DNA of 64,000 nt, from the NCBI RefSeq assembly GCF_012027495.1, contig NZ_SNUK01000002.1, positions 124,001 to 188,000 on the forward strand, written 5' to 3'. Below are positions 3,269-14,090 of this stretch, piece by piece; within the stretch, counting starts at the first letter, position 1; every line of letters starts with the position of its first letter. The notes under the pieces are model-generated. The model was not told the origin of the DNA. It did not search any database and saw only the letters and a program-made list of their open reading frames with translations. This DNA is from Thermococcus sp. JdF3. GTDB taxonomy: Archaea > Methanobacteriota_B > Thermococci > Thermococcales > Thermococcaceae. A program made the position numbers and the translations under genes.

Positions 3269-5401
3269 TCAGGCCTTCAAAAACCTCGCGTTGATGGCAA
3301 CTATCACCGTGCTCAGGCTCATGAGCAGGGCACCGAGGGCGGGGCTGAGCAGGATTCCGTAGCCGTAGAGAACGCCCGCCGCCAGGGGAATCGTGAAGGT
3401 GTTATAGCCAGTCGCCCAGGCTAGGTTCTGCACCATCTTTCTGTAGGTGGCTCTAGCAAGGTGTACAGCAGTTATGACGTCTCCAGGGTCGTTCTTGACG
3501 AGGATTATGTCTGCGCTCTCTATTGCCACGTCCGTTCCAGCTCCGATGGCTATCCCAACATCGGCCTGAATCAAAGCCGGAGCGTCGTTTATGCCGTCGC
3601 CAACCATTGCAACGACGAACCCCTGTTTCTGGAGTTCCTGTATCTTTTCAGACTTCTGATGGGGCAGAACTTCGGCGAAGAAGCCATCCAGACCGAGCTC
3701 TTCGGCAACCCATTTGGCAACTTTGGCGTTGTCTCCGGTGAGCATGTAGGCCTTTATCCCCATCTCGTGGAGTTTTTCCACGGCTTCCCTCGATTCCGGC
3801 CTTATCTTATCTGCCAAAGCCAGAGCACCCACGAGCTTTCCATCGATGACCAGGAACACCACCGTCTTGCCCTGCTCTAAGACCTCCTTAACGCGCTCGT
3901 CCTCTCTCCACAGCCCGTTCTCCTTCAGGAAGCCGGGGCTTACGACGAGAATTTCCTTACCGTTTATAACGCCCTGAACGCCCTTACCGGGCAGGACCTT
4001 GGATTCGCTTACATCATAGACTTCAAGCCCGAGCTCTTTGGCCTTTTCCACTATTCCCCGGGCTATCGGGTGGCTGGAGTGAGCTTCGAGGGCGGCGGCG
4101 TACTTCAGAATCTCCTCCTCGCTCAGTTCGTCCAGCGGGATTACCTCAGTAACCTCAAACTTACCCTCGGTCAGCGTTCCCGTCTTGTCGAAGACAACGA
4201 CCTGCACGTCTTTGGCTCTCTCAAAGGCTTCCCTGTTCCTGATGAGTATGCCCTTCTTGGCCGAAATTGATGTCGAGACCGAAACTACCAGCGGGACTGC
4301 CAGGCCAAGAGCGTGGGGACACGTTATGACCATGACGGTTACCATTCTCTCAAGGGCAAAGACGAAGGGCTTGCCGAGGTAGAGCCACGCCCCGAGCGTT
4401 ACCGTTCCGGCCGTTATGGCTATGAGCGTGAGGTAGAAGGCCGCCCTGTTCGCCAGATCCTGCGTTCTTGAACGCGTTTCCTGCGCCTGTCTGACGAGCT
4501 CAACGACCTGCATGAGGTAGGTGTCCTTTCCAGTCTTCTCTATCCTGACCTTTATTGCTCCCTCAAGGTTTATCGAACCGCCGATGACGGCCTCGCCGGG
4601 CTTCTTGTAAACGGGCTTCGATTCGCCGGTGAGCATCGCCTCGTTGACGCTCGTTTCACCCTCGACTATGACGCCATCGGAGGGCACCTTTTCGCCGGGC
4701 TTGACTAAAACTATGTCGCCCTTTTTCAGCCCGCTCACAGGGACGTCCTTTATCCCATCAGGCGTTACCAGGTGGGCATCGGTGGGCATGAGCTTTATGA
4801 GTTCCTCAAGGGCCCGCGATGCTCCAAGGACGGAGCGCATCTCTATGTAGTGCCCTATAAGCATGATGTCGATAAGCGTCGCGAGTTCCCAGTAGAAGGT
4901 TTTCCCAGAGATGCCGAAGGTGACGGCGGCGCTGTAGAAGAAGGCAACCGTGATTGCCAGAGCTATGAGCGTCATCATTCCCGGGAGTCTCTTCCTCAGC
5001 TCGTCAGCCATGCCCTTGAGGAAGGGCCAGCCGCCGTAGAAGTACACCACCGCCGAGAGCGCAAACAGGACGTAGTGGTCGCCCGGAAAAGTCAGCTCAA
5101 AGCCGAAGAAGTTCTGTATCAGCGGGGACAGAATCAGAATCGGAACCGTCAGTATTGCGGAGACTATAAAACGTCTCTTAAAGTCCTGCATCATCATCTC
5201 ATGGTGCTTTGCATGAGAATGCCCCCCATGTTTCTCATGTTCGCTGTGTTCTTTATGAACGCGGCCATCATCTCCAGCAACTCTGTGTTCTTTATGTCTA
5301 TCTCCATGAATGTGTTCCCCATGTCCTGCTCCATTCATCCCAGAGATCTCTTTCATCTTATCCTGCACGTGCTCCCCGTGCACCTCATCATTTTCTTTCA
5401 T
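3269..5401 (-). CDS. CopB-type copper-transporting P-type ATPase
   Basis: This P1B-type ATPase of about 710 residues exports copper (probably Cu(II) or Cu(I)/Ag) across the membrane. Diagnostic residues are the intramembrane CPH (about 361-363), the phosphorylated Asp in DKTGT (about 405), the actuator TGES (about 258-261) and the GDGIND hinge. The N-terminus has no HMA domain but a His-rich tail (HGEH, HKEH, HSHAKHH) in residues 8-67, typical of the CopB branch. The ATG at 5401 is chosen because GGTG lies 6 nt upstream; in-frame ATGs at 5413 and 5422 and a TTG at 5458 are alternatives, the TTG lying within a TATA-like AT stretch. Confidence 0.9.
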   Translation of the reverse strand: MKENDEVHGEHVQDKMKEISGMNGAGHGEHIHGDRHKEHRVAGDDGRVHKEHSEHEKHGGHSHAKHHEMMMQDFKRRFIVSAILTVPILILSPLIQNFFGFELTFPGDHYVLFALSAVVYFYGGWPFLKGMADELRKRLPGMMTLIALAITVAFFYSAAVTFGISGKTFYWELATLIDIMLIGHYIEMRSVLGASRALEELIKLMPTDAHLVTPDGIKDVPVSGLKKGDIVLVKPGEKVPSDGVIVEGETSVNEAMLTGESKPVYKKPGEAVIGGSINLEGAIKVRIEKTGKDTYLMQVVELVRQAQETRSRTQDLANRAAFYLTLIAITAGTVTLGAWLYLGKPFVFALERMVTVMVITCPHALGLAVPLVVSVSTSISAKKGILIRNREAFERAKDVQVVVFDKTGTLTEGKFEVTEVIPLDELSEEEILKYAAALEAHSSHPIARGIVEKAKELGLEVYDVSESKVLPGKGVQGVINGKEILVVSPGFLKENGLWREDERVKEVLEQGKTVVFLVIDGKLVGALALADKIRPESREAVEKLHEMGIKAYMLTGDNAKVAKWVAEELGLDGFFAEVLPHQKSEKIQELQKQGFVVAMVGDGINDAPALIQADVGIAIGAGTDVAIESADIILVKNDPGDVITAVHLARATYRKMVQNLAWATGYNTFTIPLAAGVLYGYGILLSPALGALLMSLSTVIVAINARFLKA

Positions 5402-5511
5402 ATTCAACACCATATACAGCATCTCTTCGGGGCAAGTATTTAACCATTTTTTATTCAAAATTGAAAGGCCGCGAAGATCGAACCATGACTAAAAGAAAAA
5501 GGGATTCGGAA

Positions 5512-6078
5512 TCATTCCTTCATCATGTCCTCGATTTCGCGGAGCCTCTTTCCAGGTTCGAGCTCCCTCTCCGCCGATGAGGCCATCAGCCCTTCGGCCA
5601 TCTCTACGGTTTCAATGTCGAACTCGCCCGTTAGGATGCTCTCGCTGGTCAGGTCTATCATGGTGTTCAGAGCTTCCTCCAGGTTCTCAACCTTGCCCAT
5701 CGCCTTCTCGAACTCGACCTGCATCTTCGCCACGTCCTCCGCTCCGGGACCTTCCGCAATGCTCCTGACAACGTCCTTGCTGAACTGGATGAAGTCCGCG
5801 GAAACCTTGACGAGCTCCCTCTGAATCTCGGCCTCCTCCATGAGAAGGAGCAGGCGCTTCGCCTGCTTTATCCTCTCCTCAAGGGAGAGGTACTTCATGG
5901 CACTCCTCTTGAGGAGCGCTTCATCGCCGAGCTTCGCCGCTTCCTTCCCCTGAAGGAAGATTTTACGCTTCAAGTTTTCGAGATTGGTAATGTAGTGCTT
6001 CAGCGCCATCTTCGCCTTCCTCATGCGTATCTTCCGCTCTATCTCCTTCTCCTCCTTCGACTTCCACAGCTTAACCAT
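5512..6078 (-). CDS. ESCRT-III/Snf7-like coiled-coil protein
   Basis: The 188-residue protein is nearly all helical. A strongly basic N-terminus (KSKEEKEIERKIRMRKAK) is followed by a long helix pair (about 25-95) and further helices with acidic character toward the C-terminus, the plan and size of Snf7/CdvB proteins. Segments such as DFIQFSKDVVRSI and FEKAMGKVENLEEALN resemble the middle Snf7 helices. It is the last gene of the kinase-ATPase-phosphatase operon, with GGGAGGTG before the ATG at 6078. In ESCRT systems such proteins polymerise on membranes and are removed by Vps4. The family call comes from my reading of pattern and context and needs a profile search. Confidence 0.6.
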   Translation of the reverse strand: MVKLWKSKEEKEIERKIRMRKAKMALKHYITNLENLKRKIFLQGKEAAKLGDEALLKRSAMKYLSLEERIKQAKRLLLLMEEAEIQRELVKVSADFIQFSKDVVRSIAEGPGAEDVAKMQVEFEKAMGKVENLEEALNTMIDLTSESILTGEFDIETVEMAEGLMASSAERELEPGKRLREIEDMMKE

Positions 6079-6083
6079 GATCG

Positions 6084-6824
6084 TCACACCTCCCTAAACA
6101 CAACAACGGTTACGTTGTCCTCGGTAACCTTCAAAGCTTCCCCAATCAGCGCCTCCACGGTCGCTTTGGGGCTGGATTCCAGGGTGAGCTTTTCTATAGT
6201 CCCGTCATCCAGGTAATCATGAAGCCCGTCTGAGCTGAGAATCAGAACGTCCCCCGTTCTCATTTCCCACACGTAGGTGTCGACCTCAGGGTCAACGCCG
6301 AGGGCCTTTGTAACAACGTGCCTCATGGGGTGCCTTTTAACTTCCTCCTCGCCGATGACTCCCCTCTCAAGAAGCCCCTGAACCACCGAATGATCCCTCG
6401 TCCTTGCAATGATCTTTCCGTCCCGCACCAGGTAAGCCCTGCTGTCGCCGGTGTTCGCTATCAAAGCTTTTCCGTTCCTTACAAAGGTACTCACAAGGGT
6501 AGTCCCCATTCTTCCAGGGGCTTTTGAGGCATCCAGTATTCTGCGGTGGGCAGTCTCGTAGGCCATCAGGAGAAGCCTTTCAACGTCCGTCTCGCCCAGT
6601 TCTTGGCGGTAGTTCTCCTCAAAGACCTCGCTTAAGGTTTCAACCGCGGTTCGCGCCGCAAGCTCGCCTGCACTGTGCCCGCCCAGCCCATCGGCAACCG
6701 CGAGAAGGTAACCGTCCCCGAGGGGCAGGACGAGGAATGCATCCTCGTTTTTTTCCCTGCCCCCCGGATGGGAAATTCCCCAGACCCTGCCTTCAACACC
6801 ACAGGAGATGCCTCCCCCGCTCAT
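6084..6824 (-). CDS. PP2C-family protein Ser/Thr phosphatase
   Basis: This 246-residue metal-dependent phosphatase shows the PP2C motifs in order: REKNEDAF, VADGLGGHSAGE (metal-binding Asp and Gly), GTTLV, ANTGDSRAYLV, RDHSVV, SSDGLHDYL and DNVTVV. No membrane segment is visible. The ATG at 6824 overlaps the stop of the AAA ATPase gene (ATGA), and the gene runs directly into the Snf7-like gene, so the three proteins should be made together. It is the obvious counterpart of the kinase encoded two genes upstream and probably dephosphorylates the same targets. An in-frame start at 6845 would overlap the ATPase gene further and has a weaker ribosome site. Confidence 0.92.
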   Translation of the reverse strand: MSGGGISCGVEGRVWGISHPGGREKNEDAFLVLPLGDGYLLAVADGLGGHSAGELAARTAVETLSEVFEENYRQELGETDVERLLLMAYETAHRRILDASKAPGRMGTTLVSTFVRNGKALIANTGDSRAYLVRDGKIIARTRDHSVVQGLLERGVIGEEEVKRHPMRHVVTKALGVDPEVDTYVWEMRTGDVLILSSDGLHDYLDDGTIEKLTLESSPKATVEALIGEALKVTEDNVTVVVFREV

Positions 6825-8002
6825 CCGCCGAACTCCTCCGCCCATTTTTCGTAGCGCTCGATGTCTTTCTTTGTCAGAGGGCTCTTTATCTTCCTGAAAG
6901 CCTCCTCGAAGTCCCTCATCCCAAGCGGCCTGGTTCTGAGGGAGCGCTTCCTCAGCTCCTCAAGCGGAAGGCTGGCCAGCTTGTGGAGATCCCTGTTTTC
7001 CTCGCGTATCATGTTCCACACGGCCTCCTGGCAGAGGTTCCTGATGTCCCTGCCAGAGTACAGTCGCCTCACGCTCTCCTCCGCTATCGCGTCGAGGTCG
7101 AGCCTTGATATGTCCAGGCCTTTGGTGTGGATTCTTATGATGGACTTGGTCGCCTCTTTATCGGGAAGGGGGACGTAAATCCTCTTGGGGAAGCGCGAAA
7201 GGATGGCTTCGTCCAGATCCCAGGGAGTGTTGGTCGCCGCCAGCGTGAGAACGAGCTTATCACTCTCCCCTTCGTGAAAGCCCTCAAGCTCGGTGAGAAG
7301 CGTTGAGAGCATCCTCCGGGTAGCTTCGCTCGTATCGTTGGAGCGCCTCGTGGTGAGCGCGTCTATCTCATCAAGGAAAACTATGCTTGGTGCCTTTTCT
7401 CTCGCAACCTCATAAAGGGCCGAGATAATCTTGCTTGACTCTCCAAAGTACTTGCTCAGCACGCTCGAAGCCTTGACGTTGAAGAAGGCCGCGTTTAGGC
7501 TCCCAGCCGCAGCTGAAGCTAACAGGGTCTTTCCGGTTCCCGGAGGCCCGAAGAGCAGGATTCCCTTCCACGGCTGAACAGCGGCGGGCTTTCTCAGGGC
7601 AGATATAACCACGGTCTCCATCACGAGCATCTTAACGTTGCTGAGACCGCCGATATCGTCCCAGGTGATGGTTGATTTTGCCATGAGGCCGAGCACGTAC
7701 TCCCTGAACTGGTCATCTTCATCTTCCTCAGGCCGGGCTTTCCTGCCTTCAGCGCTCACCACCGCCTTTCTGCCGTATTCGCCCCGCTCTATCTGCCCGG
7801 CCACCTCCTCCCACTTTCTCGCCTTCCTGAGGTACAGCTCCCCGTTGTAGGGAACGTGACGGGCAAGCTCCCTCAGGAGTGAGGCACATCTCAGGGCGCT
7901 CCTCCTCGCCGTTTCCATATCCTCCGCGGAAACTGCTTTTTCGAACTGCTTCTTTGTCCGCTCAAACTCGCTCAGCAGGGGACCCGACAGGTCAACCGGC
8001 AT
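6821..8002 (-). CDS. Vps4-like AAA ATPase with MIT-like N-terminal domain
   Basis: The 393-residue protein has a three-helix N-terminal part (about 8-75) shaped like an MIT domain, an acidic linker, and one AAA module. Visible are ITWDDIGGL (about 112-120), Walker A GPPGTGKT (152-159), Walker B IVFLDEID (207-214), sensor 1 AATN (255-258), and SRFPKRIYVPLPD (269-281). The last element, followed by a C-terminal helix ending KKDIERYEKWAEEFG, is typical of the Vps4/katanin clade rather than of proteasomal or Cdc48 ATPases. The start at ATG 8002 lies 6 nt behind GGGGAGGTG; the frame is open to a GTG at 8008. It lies between kinase and phosphatase genes and beside Snf7-like genes, which supports an ESCRT-disassembly role. 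Confidence 0.85.
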   Translation of the reverse strand: MPVDLSGPLLSEFERTKKQFEKAVSAEDMETARRSALRCASLLRELARHVPYNGELYLRKARKWEEVAGQIERGEYGRKAVVSAEGRKARPEEDEDDQFREYVLGLMAKSTITWDDIGGLSNVKMLVMETVVISALRKPAAVQPWKGILLFGPPGTGKTLLASAAAGSLNAAFFNVKASSVLSKYFGESSKIISALYEVAREKAPSIVFLDEIDALTTRRSNDTSEATRRMLSTLLTELEGFHEGESDKLVLTLAATNTPWDLDEAILSRFPKRIYVPLPDKEATKSIIRIHTKGLDISRLDLDAIAEESVRRLYSGRDIRNLCQEAVWNMIREENRDLHKLASLPLEELRKRSLRTRPLGMRDFEEAFRKIKSPLTKKDIERYEKWAEEFGG

Positions 8003-8004
8003 TC

Positions 8005-9705
8005 TCACACCTCCCCAAATCCAAGCTGTATCTTGTGAACTATTATCTCGGCCTTCTCGACCAGCTCCTCCGGAACGTCAAGGCCGTTTTCAAGGCGGAG
8101 CCTGAGCTGCTCCCTCAAACCCAATAACTCGTCCCTCACCTCTCCCCTGGCATAATGGAAGAGGTCGTCGGCATACTTGAGCGCGTTAACCAGGTCGTTG
8201 AGCTTCAGGTACAGGAGAAACAGCTCGCCGGCGTAGTACGCGCTCCGGGACAGGTCGTTGAGCGAGACGCTCTTGCTGAGGTTCTCGCGGTAGTTCATCC
8301 CAAGGAACTCGGCTATATCCTTCTGGAGCTCCGCAACGCTCTGGTAGCGCTCCTCCTTGTTCTTCGCCAGACACTTCATTACGATGGGCTCGAGGGGCTT
8401 GGCCTCTGGATTGAGCCGGCTTGGTGGGACCGGCTCCTCAAAGGTTATCTTCGAGGCAACCTCCACAAAGTCCTCTCCCTCGAAGGGCGGCCTTCCTGTG
8501 AGGAGCTCATATAGAACCGCCCCTATCTGCCAGACGTCGGTTCTTTCATCGGTTCCTCCAAAGCGGGAGCTTATCTGCTCGGGGGCGGCGTAGAGAGGGG
8601 TGAAGCTGACCGTGTGGGTTGTCCTGCTCTCCTTGAGGAGCTTGCTCAGCCCCCAGTCGCTCACCTTCGCCCGGCTGTTCCTCAGGAGTATGTTGCTCGG
8701 TTTGAGGTCGCGATGGATTACGCCCTTGGAATGGGCGTACTTCAGCCCCTCGGCAACGTCGAAGATTATTCTGGCGGCCTTTTCAGGGCTCACGGGCTTT
8801 CGAAGCTTTCCAAGGCTCGTCTCGCAGTATTCCATCTCAAGGTACGGAACCGGGAAGATGTTGTAGTCATAGAGTTCAACTATGTTGGGATGGTTGAGGA
8901 GCGACCAGTTCCTGACCTCTCTGAGGAACGCCTTACCTCCCTCTTCAGTCAGACTGAGCGGAACTTTGAGGGCAACCACACTTCCATCGTGCTTCTCCGC
9001 CCGGTAGACCCGCGCAAAGCCGCCCTCACCGATGGGTTCAACCTTCCTATACCTTGCGAACAGCTCCTCCAGCAGCGACTTGGGGGAAGCGGGAGCGGAA
9101 CCCTCAACCGGAACCTGAACGGGTTTTTTCCGCTCCCTTGGTCTTTCAAGAACCTCGGCTCTGACCTTCACCTTTGCACTCACCGCACCGGAGCGGACGG
9201 TTATCCTGGCGCTTACCTTCCCGGGATTTCTGGGAACGGCCCTCAGCGTCTGAGAGACGTATTCGCCCGGCCTCACGTTCCTGAAGTAGACCCTCGTTGA
9301 ACTGAGCTCGAAGTACCTTGCCAGGTCTCCCAGGTCAACCTCAACGTTTATCGTTCCCCTGAGGAGATTCCTGAAGCCCACCTTGACCGGAACGTCCTCT
9401 CCAGCGTAGAGGCTGTGCGGAATCTCAACCACCAGGGACTTCCGGAGGAGCTCTTTCATGTCCTCCCTTGGAACGGGGGGAACAGGAGGGGCAGGTCCAG
9501 GGTAGCGGTATTTGTACCTCCTCTTGCTGGACTTTGAAACGTCCTTAAGCAGATGTTTTATCAGGCGTCCAAACCACATAACGACCACTATGAATATTAT
9601 GAATCCCGCTCCACCTCCAAAGATGAAGGAGATGAGCACGACCACGATGAAGAGCTTCACAAGGCTCTCCGCGATGTCATCGTCAAACCAGTGCCACATG
9701 TGCAC
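8005..9705 (-). CDS. Membrane-anchored Hanks-type Ser/Thr protein kinase
   Basis: Numbered from the upstream in-frame GTG at 9735, the protein has an N-terminal hydrophobic hairpin (about 21-57), a Pro-rich linker (79-90), a beta-rich domain (about 98-197) and a full kinase domain (about 228-478): GEGGFA loop (236-241), Lys257, Glu273, HRDLKPSN (341-348), DWG in place of DFG (360-362) and APE (384-386). The last 95 residues are helical. GGAGG lies 7 nt before the GTG at 9705, which I prefer as the start (566 residues). Kinase and sensor-like parts probably face the cytoplasm. It heads the operon with the Vps4-like ATPase, PP2C phosphatase and Snf7-like gene. Confidence 0.9.
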   Translation of the reverse strand: MHMWHWFDDDIAESLVKLFIVVVLISFIFGGGAGFIIFIVVVMWFGRLIKHLLKDVSKSSKRRYKYRYPGPAPPVPPVPREDMKELLRKSLVVEIPHSLYAGEDVPVKVGFRNLLRGTINVEVDLGDLARYFELSSTRVYFRNVRPGEYVSQTLRAVPRNPGKVSARITVRSGAVSAKVKVRAEVLERPRERKKPVQVPVEGSAPASPKSLLEELFARYRKVEPIGEGGFARVYRAEKHDGSVVALKVPLSLTEEGGKAFLREVRNWSLLNHPNIVELYDYNIFPVPYLEMEYCETSLGKLRKPVSPEKAARIIFDVAEGLKYAHSKGVIHRDLKPSNILLRNSRAKVSDWGLSKLLKESRTTHTVSFTPLYAAPEQISSRFGGTDERTDVWQIGAVLYELLTGRPPFEGEDFVEVASKITFEEPVPPSRLNPEAKPLEPIVMKCLAKNKEERYQSVAELQKDIAEFLGMNYRENLSKSVSLNDLSRSAYYAGELFLLYLKLNDLVNALKYADDLFHYARGEVRDELLGLREQLRLRLENGLDVPEELVEKAEIIVHKIQLGFGEV

Positions 9706-13529: not shown

Positions 13530-14090
13530 TCAAGTCCTCTCGATGACGTCCTTCAAAATGCCCTCAACTTCACCGGCGACCTTTAGCAGCTCGTCGTTTC
13601 CGGTTATGCTCATGGCCTTCGTTGGAAGCAAAAGCCCCACATAGGTCTTTCCATCCTTTACGTAGACCACTATGTTGCACGGAAGGAACGAACCGCTGTT
13701 GATGTCGATGCCTATGAGCTGGCTTGAGAACTTCGGGTTGCAGGCGCCCAGTATTACGTACGGCTCCATCTCAAGATCGAGCTTTTCCTTGAAGAGCGTG
13801 TCAACCCTGACCTCGCTGAGGACTCCGAAGCCCTCCTTCTTCAGCTCTTCCTTGACCTTTGCCACCGTCTCGTCAAAGCCGGTCTTAACCTCCCGGACGT
13901 AGGCATACTCCTTATGGGACTCCTCCATTTCCTTCATCCCGTGCATGCCGTGGTGGCCTTTGCCCATCCCCTTGCCGTGGCCCTTGCAGCCTCCTCCTTT
14001 CTTTCCCTTACCTTTCATCCCGGCCATTTTGCCGTGCATCACCTTCATGCCGCCCTTCATCTTTTCCATCTCTCCGGTTTCACCGTTCAT
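13530..14090 (-). CDS. DUF302 protein with Met/His/Lys-rich N-terminus
   Basis: The 186-residue protein has a low-complexity N-terminus (about 1-60) made of Met, His, Gly and Lys (MHGK, CKGHGKGMGKGHHGMHG), which looks metal-binding, and a DUF302 domain (about 62-186) with the usual YVILGACNP and FLPCNIVVY motifs. The function of DUF302 is not established. Two more DUF302 genes occur in this window (24085-24498 and 38146-38499), both near metal or redox genes. GGTGAT precedes the ATG. No membrane segment is visible. The Met/His content suggests Cu(I) or Cu(II) handling, an inference. Confidence 0.85.
   Translation of the reverse strand: MNGETGEMEKMKGGMKVMHGKMAGMKGKGKKGGGCKGHGKGMGKGHHGMHGMKEMEESHKEYAYVREVKTGFDETVAKVKEELKKEGFGVLSEVRVDTLFKEKLDLEMEPYVILGACNPKFSSQLIGIDINSGSFLPCNIVVYVKDGKTYVGLLLPTKAMSITGNDELLKVAGEVEGILKDVIERT

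Follow-up and report, generated by a model that had tools for sequence, protein, structure and literature searches.

The window examined here, a stretch of 64,000 nucleotides from Thermococcus sp. JdF3 (contig NZ_SNUK01000002.1, positions 124,001 to 188,000), carries a run of eight minus-strand genes in which a Vps4-type AAA ATPase (P0001) is encoded together with a protein resembling ESCRT-III (endosomal sorting complex required for transport III; P0002), a kinase, and a phosphatase. From first to last, the genes are P0008, P0007, P0006, P0005, P0004, P0001, P0003, and P0002; at five of the seven junctions, adjacent genes overlap by 4 to 25 bases or lie 1 base apart, and the widest gap, located before the kinase gene, is 106 bases. 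The ATPase gene occupies positions 6821 to 8008 of the minus strand, begins with a GTG codon, and yields a product of 395 aa; the initial annotation, made from the sequence alone, had the correct boundary at 6821 but ended the gene at 8002, 6 bases short. This open reading frame (ORF) is no chance product, as 20 of 37 genomes of the same genus contain full-length orthologues. P0001 contains one AAA module only (residues ~110–340), preceded by an MIT-like three-helix N-terminus (~8–74) and followed by a Vps4_C segment (350–394). Its motifs are intact, i.e., WDDIGGL, the Walker A motif GPPGTGKT (residue 154), the pore loop SKYFGES (residue 185), the Walker B motif IVFLDEID (residue 209), and the NTPWDLD...SRF segment with the SRF arginine motif (residues 260–273). 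Pfam searches matched AAA (1.6e-38) and Vps4_C (6.5e-9; 36.1 bits, cut-off 21.3).

The initial annotation had read WDDIGGL, a further sequence segment, and a C-terminal helix as a mark of Vps4 and katanin; the motifs are present, but they cannot by themselves tell Vps4 from Cdc48. The Vps4_C match was likewise rejected as proof of a Vps4, since Cdc48-looking ORFs of ~730–850 aa clear the same cut-off, and the class of P0001 therefore had to be decided by a tree of the AAA domain. The NCBIfam ranking (Cdc48 209.8 bits, CdvC 199.1, PAN 197.0) does not discriminate between the classes.

We built a maximum likelihood tree of 81 AAA domains from archaea and bacteria, with Cdc48 D1/D2, PAN, and FtsH as the other families. 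As anchors, we used Asgard proteins whose alignment to yeast and mammalian Vps4 extends from the N-terminus across the AAA domain, and a CdvC that aligns with 4LCB. P0001 falls in a clade of 17 rows made up of Thermococcales and methanogen-like proteins (support 99/99), which is nested in a clade of 26 rows that adds a Cuniculiplasma protein and one type of planctomycete protein (type A, see below; 100/98), and this in turn lies in an archaeal Vps4 clade of 35 rows that adds Sulfolobales-type CdvC, other TACK-like (Thaumarchaeota, Aigarchaeota, Crenarchaeota, and Korarchaeota) proteins, and Asgard Vps4 (100/99). A second tree of 77 rows, from which four long or doubtful rows were dropped (L134, L265, L272, and L113), keeps these clades with 17 rows (99/99), 25 rows (100/98), and 33 rows (99/97). 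In both trees, Cdc48 D1/D2, PAN, and FtsH lie outside the clade holding P0001. By its sequence, then, P0001 is a member of the archaeal Vps4 clade, apart from PAN, Cdc48, and FtsH, which bears out the placement first proposed for it. Because the trees contain no eukaryotic Vps4, katanin, or spastin, the placement does not separate Vps4 from katanin for P0001; PDB sequence searches with P0001 and an Asgard Vps4 printed only alignments to two-domain p97/Cdc48 proteins, hence the lack of eukaryotic rows. Seven rows of alphaproteobacterial and acidobacterial matches belong to proteins of 749–832 aa that sit next to Cdc48 D2, and these were set aside.

The predicted structure of P0001 has a mean predicted local distance difference test (pLDDT) score of 79.4, and the top Foldseek matches were katanin, FIGL-1, spastin, and Vps4. 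A second structural comparison gave Z 31.2 for spastin (root-mean-square deviation 2.2 over 272 aligned residues), 29.9 for the Metallosphaera Vps4, and 27.2–27.4 for PAN, a spread among predicted-model scores that is too small to lean on.

The N-terminus of P0001 is predicted to form three helices (residues 8–27, 31–51, and 53–74; pLDDT mostly 85–92 in this block) and no OB fold, in line with the helical reading first given to it. Profile comparison linked the archaeal Vps4 N-termini to those of the Asgard/TACK set (56%, 1.1e-4) and to those of planctomycete Vps4 proteins of types A and B (81% and 92%), and the planctomycete N-termini in turn matched the Asgard/TACK set (95% and 94%); reversed sequences did not exceed 8.4%, and helical controls taken from these loci did not exceed 1.7%. 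A PDB profile search with the P0001 N-terminus returned 11 matches, none of them an MIT entry. Among ten planctomycete Vps4 N-termini, Pfam MIT matched none at E ≤ 0.1, and TPR_2 matched six weakly (best 0.0045). We read the P0001 N-terminus as a probable divergent MIT domain, a reading from profiles and a predicted fold that falls short of proof.

P0002 (positions 5512 to 6087, minus strand), which closes the operon and shares 4 bases with the phosphatase gene, encodes a helical protein of 191 aa. Helices are predicted at residues 11–53, 56–110, 116–153, 158–173, and 178–190, and the predicted fold is a long helical hairpin followed by shorter helices. Its own score against Pfam Snf7 is 18.1 bits, under the cut-off of 27.3, and a true CdvB (L119) scores just 28.8 bits, barely over it. 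When P0002 and its bacterial relatives were searched as one family, Snf7 appeared at E ≤ 1 in 19 of 20 cases (best 2.7e-6), with the next family appearing in 7 of 20, and one bacterial member (L261) clears the curated Snf7 cut-off (27.6 vs. 27.3 bits). CdvB and CdvB2 hold Foldseek ranks 1 to 9 for the P0002 model, at weak E-values of 0.017–0.12. When the PDB was searched with a profile of the P0002 family, artificial PPR repeats came first (through many tiny stretches), followed by CHMP3, CHMP2A, and SNF7 at E-values of 0.13–2.3. By eye, a conserved [RK][LI][RK]xIE stretch ends all 11 of the P0002-type proteins.

The coiled-coil proteins P0005 (9842 to 10444) and P0006 (10441 to 11046), both on the minus strand, are paralogues (hhalign 99.0%, 3.5e-18 between P0005 and the P0006 family). 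Of the 18 members of a joint alignment of the two, 5 matched Snf7 at E ≤ 1 (best 0.026), and the corresponding PDB profile search returned 16 weak matches, one of them a CdvB at E 0.77. Among the coiled-coil proteins of the window, only P0002 is therefore well supported, by sequence families and predicted fold, as ESCRT-III-like, and P0005 and P0006 are possible divergent ESCRT-III proteins whose membership is not established. The suggestion that the ATPase would disassemble filaments encoded beside it may accordingly apply to P0002 and perhaps to the other two.

The remaining genes of the operon are all on the minus strand. P0003 (6084 to 6845), which overlaps the Vps4 gene by 25 bases, encodes a PP2C-type Ser/Thr phosphatase with the motifs NED, DGLGG, GDSR, SDG, and DN present. 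P0004 (8005 to 9735), which overlaps the Vps4 gene by 4 bases, encodes a Ser/Thr kinase (Pkinase 2.2e-47) with HRD and DWG motifs, a C-terminal extension, and an N-terminal hydrophobic stretch, read from the sequence, that would anchor it in the membrane. P0007 (11048 to 12871; 607 aa with a long coiled coil) and P0008 (12881 to 13399; 172 aa), the first operon gene, are annotated from their ORFs and context. The place and make-up of P0007 fit arCOG09748 and the place of P0008 fits arCOG08177 (Cas2-like plus TBP-fold), likenesses drawn on these grounds rather than by arCOG comparison; Pfam gave no match below E 0.19 for P0008. Two genes of the same orientation border the operon, one for a P-type ATPase whose N-terminus is His-rich (window positions 3269–5458) and, upstream, one for a Met/His/Lys-rich DUF302 protein (13530–14090; Pfam). 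A P-type ATPase also adjoins the operon in the relatives L126 (Pfam), L057, and L127 (both by eye), as does DUF302 in L126 and L057 (Pfam), and a link of the operon to metal handling is possible.

The host genome (2.14 Mb, 99.18% complete) contains two FtsZ genes that clear the curated cut-off, together with a third, FtsZ-like one that does not, so that the organism, earlier presumed to be one with FtsZ, does encode it. We then considered the 37 same-genus genomes, the host's own included, counting as main-type Vps4 any full-length protein of at least 70% identity. By this measure, the 20 genomes noted above carry the main Vps4 and 17 carry a P0002 homologue, all 17 of them within the 20 (Fisher 9e-8). 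In the three Vps4 carriers without P0002 (G003, G015, and G030), the locus is close to the end of its contig, or the contig is short. A second Vps4 of ~60% identity is present in 10 of the 37 genomes, beside or close to a P0002 homologue in the loci read, and a third of ~50% identity is present in 6, where it lies away from any other ESCRT gene at the loci read. The solo type from a named Thermococcus metagenome-assembled genome (MAG; L131) clusters in the first tree with those of the same-genus genomes; at five loci (L066, L067, L068, L107, and L131), the solo gene adjoins, by eye, a seryl-tRNA synthetase-like gene. In several related species (L055, L056, L058, L061, L062, L064, and L065), the locus is swollen to ~18–30 kb with many kinases bearing large N-terminal extensions, and in some of these swollen loci a pentapeptide/ion-channel protein gene stands just before Vps4.

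Outside the genus, the order P0008-P0007-P0006-P0005-Vps4-kinase-phosphatase is kept in whole or in part in four methanogen-like genomes, so that P0007 and P0008 recur there too, and a contig named as Methanothermococcus has the same gene order. A contig labelled Archaeoglobus sp. GB_MAG3_049 (L129) has a locus nearly equal to that of a Thermococci MAG (L128) and is probably mis-binned.

A scan of genome contigs, from which the best 80 of 589 stretches were taken and which thus does not bound the distribution, included a Planctomycetota MAG (L182) with an ATPase that aligns to residues 12–392 of P0001 at 31% identity and is encoded beside a P0002 homologue and a kinase. In a sample of 294 Planctomycetota genomes, homologues of this protein (type B Vps4) were found in 34, with 43–57% identity to it (the L182 protein itself aside) and most near full length; the cut between the 34th and 35th genome was placed after seeing the gap between E 2e-88 and 4e-75. 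An ESCRT-III-like protein of the Snf7 family, homologous to P0002, was found in 54 of the 294 (profile, E ≤ 1e-8), and the two occur together in 31 (Fisher 6e-24). The bacterial ESCRT-III-like family matches P0002 over its full length (profile 98.8%, 5.5e-17; reversed control 0.054). At 15 of 25 loci read, the ESCRT-III-like gene immediately precedes the type B gene on the same strand; of the remaining ten, four have less than 2 kb of upstream sequence, and six have more than 3 kb upstream yet no ESCRT-III-like gene there. In 8 of the 25 loci, the ESCRT-III-like gene is adjoined by a second Vps4, type A, which is 41–46% identical to P0001 over ~290–330 residues and clusters with the Thermococcales and methanogen proteins in both trees (100/98). 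Type B forms a deeper branch than type A.

The planctomycete clusters (L182/L245 and L246–L262) also contain proteins PL5, PL6, and PL10, for which the scanned members gave no Pfam family, and many of the loci have Ser/Thr kinases. Four long-branched planctomycete AAA proteins (L265, L266, L267, and L271; frames of ~420–560 aa) stand beside type B in the first tree.

Contamination is unlikely as a general account of the Planctomycetota cluster because its genes recur in dozens of assemblies, bacterial rpoB is over the cut-off in 9 of 10 carrier genomes checked, and bacterial genes lie nearby. On two contigs of ~106–107 kb, cluster neighbors score above the curated thresholds of NAD(P) transhydrogenase alpha, MiaA, and YfmH; 3 of 8 neighbors scanned were clearly bacterial over cut-off, and a fourth cleared a general tyrosine-recombinase model. 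One assembly (G385), in which rpoB is present twice at full length, is probably a mixture.

No FtsZ over the curated cut-off was found in any of the 294 Planctomycetota genomes, and weaker matches occurred in 10, none of them carriers. With Vps4 in just 34 of 294 genomes while FtsZ is in none, the cluster cannot be a general FtsZ replacement or division machine there. We consider it likely that these Planctomycetota encode a true ESCRT-III/Vps4 machine, and the place of type A within the Thermococcales/methanogen clade points to transfer between archaea and bacteria. This was unexpected, as ESCRT systems have been thought absent from these bacteria, and we found no report of a bacterial Vps4/ESCRT-III system in the accessible open-access literature, preprints not covered. 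If true, the two-part ESCRT system would not be limited to archaea and eukaryotes and would occur in a phylum whose sampled genomes have no FtsZ over the cut-off.

For the locus in the window, the reading that we hold to be probable is that P0001 is the Vps4 ATPase of a main-clade archaeal ESCRT system that remodels membrane outside of division. By analogy with known Vps4 proteins, P0001 would assemble as a hexamer, and its MIT-like N-terminus may dock on the tails of subunits in polymers of ESCRT-III-like proteins (P0002, perhaps P0005/P0006) at the cell membrane. It would then use ATP to thread subunits through its pore, removing or exchanging them and so remodelling or dismantling the polymer. 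P0004, as a kinase anchored in the membrane, and the phosphatase P0003 would toggle this assembly, or else tag cargo. FtsZ is present in the cell, and a task in membrane remodelling other than division, such as the budding of vesicles or cargo or membrane repair, is therefore the likely one. The sequence data establish the class of the parts, their intact catalytic motifs, the gene order, and the co-inheritance, from which the hexamer, the binding, the disassembly, the phospho-control, and the cellular task are inferred.

Several observations weigh against this reading. Pfam MIT does not match P0001 and matched 1 of 15 relatives, only at 0.039. A profile comparison of P0002 with CdvB alone gave no alignment (0.1%), and VIA-align rated BAR domains at or above ESCRT-III for P0002 (Z ~10 vs. 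8–9). The initial annotation had suggested looking for MIM-like motifs in the C-termini of the coiled-coil proteins; a core pattern for MIT-interacting motif 1 (MIM1) was scanned in the last 40 residues and was absent from the window proteins there, as it was from all 11 P0002-type and all 12 P0005-type tails. The core was present in 3 of 10 P0006-type tails, the matching ones from methanogen-type relatives, and in 2 of 14 bacterial tails; across the families scanned, shuffled sequences gave a chance expectation of 0.45–0.96 each. P0002 was not seen at the four methanogen-like loci read. Finally, an earlier review (PMC10117752) cites unpublished work in T. kodakarensis in which disruption of any of three Vps4-homologue genes left vesicle production unchanged.

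The results allow other explanations, to which we assign differing weight. P0001 could be a general unfoldase of the Cdc48/PAN type with coiled-coil genes nearby by coincidence, and indeed sequence searches put Cdc48 at the top for P0001, Vps4_C also matches Cdc48-sized ORFs, and the structural Z-scores of p97 D2 and PAN are only ~2–4 under the best. Two trees nevertheless split P0001 from Cdc48 D1/D2 and PAN with strong support, and its single AAA domain, MIT-like N-terminus, and strict co-inheritance with P0002 make this explanation highly improbable. We also think it improbable, if somewhat less so, that the system aids cell division beside or instead of FtsZ. CdvB and CdvC do divide the cells of Sulfolobales, as is textbook knowledge for that other group of organisms, but the two FtsZ genes of the host and the restriction of the system to 20 of 37 same-genus genomes fit poorly with an essential divisome.

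That P0002, P0005, and P0006 are BAR-like or other coiled-coil scaffolds rather than ESCRT-III would agree with the VIA-align ratings and the failed P0002–CdvB comparison; as members of the P0002 family match Snf7 far more often than any other Pfam family (19 of 20 vs. 7 of 20 for the next) and CdvB/CdvB2 fill the first nine Foldseek ranks of P0002, we regard this as unlikely, although for P0005 and P0006 the scaffold reading may yet hold. The alternative with the most room is that the operon is a conditional or stress module, e.g., for signal-controlled envelope repair, secretion, or defence, in which Vps4 chemistry serves a purpose other than budding. The patchy distribution in the genus, the related loci with many extended kinases and a pentapeptide/ion-channel protein beside Vps4, and the metal-type P-type ATPase and DUF302 genes that flank the operon in the window and some relatives all speak for such a module. 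A core that pairs Vps4 with an ESCRT-III-like protein is, however, that of membrane-remodelling systems, and we treat the module as a tentative second choice to a Vps4 that remodels membrane outside of division. With the latter, the locus would place a kinase- and phosphatase-controlled ESCRT system in hyperthermophiles, among whose relatives are genetically tractable organisms noted for vesicles and nanotubes of unknown machinery.

The locus belongs to a type already described. The earlier review (PMC10117752) held Thermococcales to be without ESCRT-III. PMC10936438 distinguishes a "main clade" among archaeal ESCRT systems, found in Thermococcales, Methanococcales, and others, with Vps4, ESCRT-III, two further proteins, and, in many genomes, a phosphatase and a Ser/Thr kinase associated with the membrane; it also reports that complex archaeal ESCRT systems co-occur with FtsZ, proposes vesicle formation and protein sorting for them, and notes solo Vps4 genes in Thermococcales. 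A Vps4 in an organism with FtsZ is thus already in print. The window locus shares the Vps4, the ESCRT-III-like, coiled-coil, and small proteins, the membrane Ser/Thr kinase, the phosphatase, and the FtsZ-bearing host with these systems and shows no basic difference from them, being a compact eight-gene form. With the CdvC/CdvB system of Sulfolobales, it shares the Vps4 clade, an MIT-related N-terminus, and an ESCRT-III-like partner gene nearby, and P0001 is 31–33% identical to CdvC over the AAA part. In contrast to that system, the window host has FtsZ, and the operon has a kinase and a phosphatase and, by eye, no recognizable CdvA-like gene. Eukaryotic and Asgard Vps4 proteins have the domain order MIT, AAA, and Vps4_C, which P0001 parallels with its MIT-like N-terminus, whereas P0001 sits on a distant branch and no ESCRT-I/II or ubiquitin genes were noticed at the window locus. 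The Planctomycetota cluster shares with the window the type A clade, a P0002-homologous partner, and kinases at many loci, and it differs in its bacterial hosts, its second, deeper Vps4 (type B), and the extra proteins PL5, PL6, and PL10.

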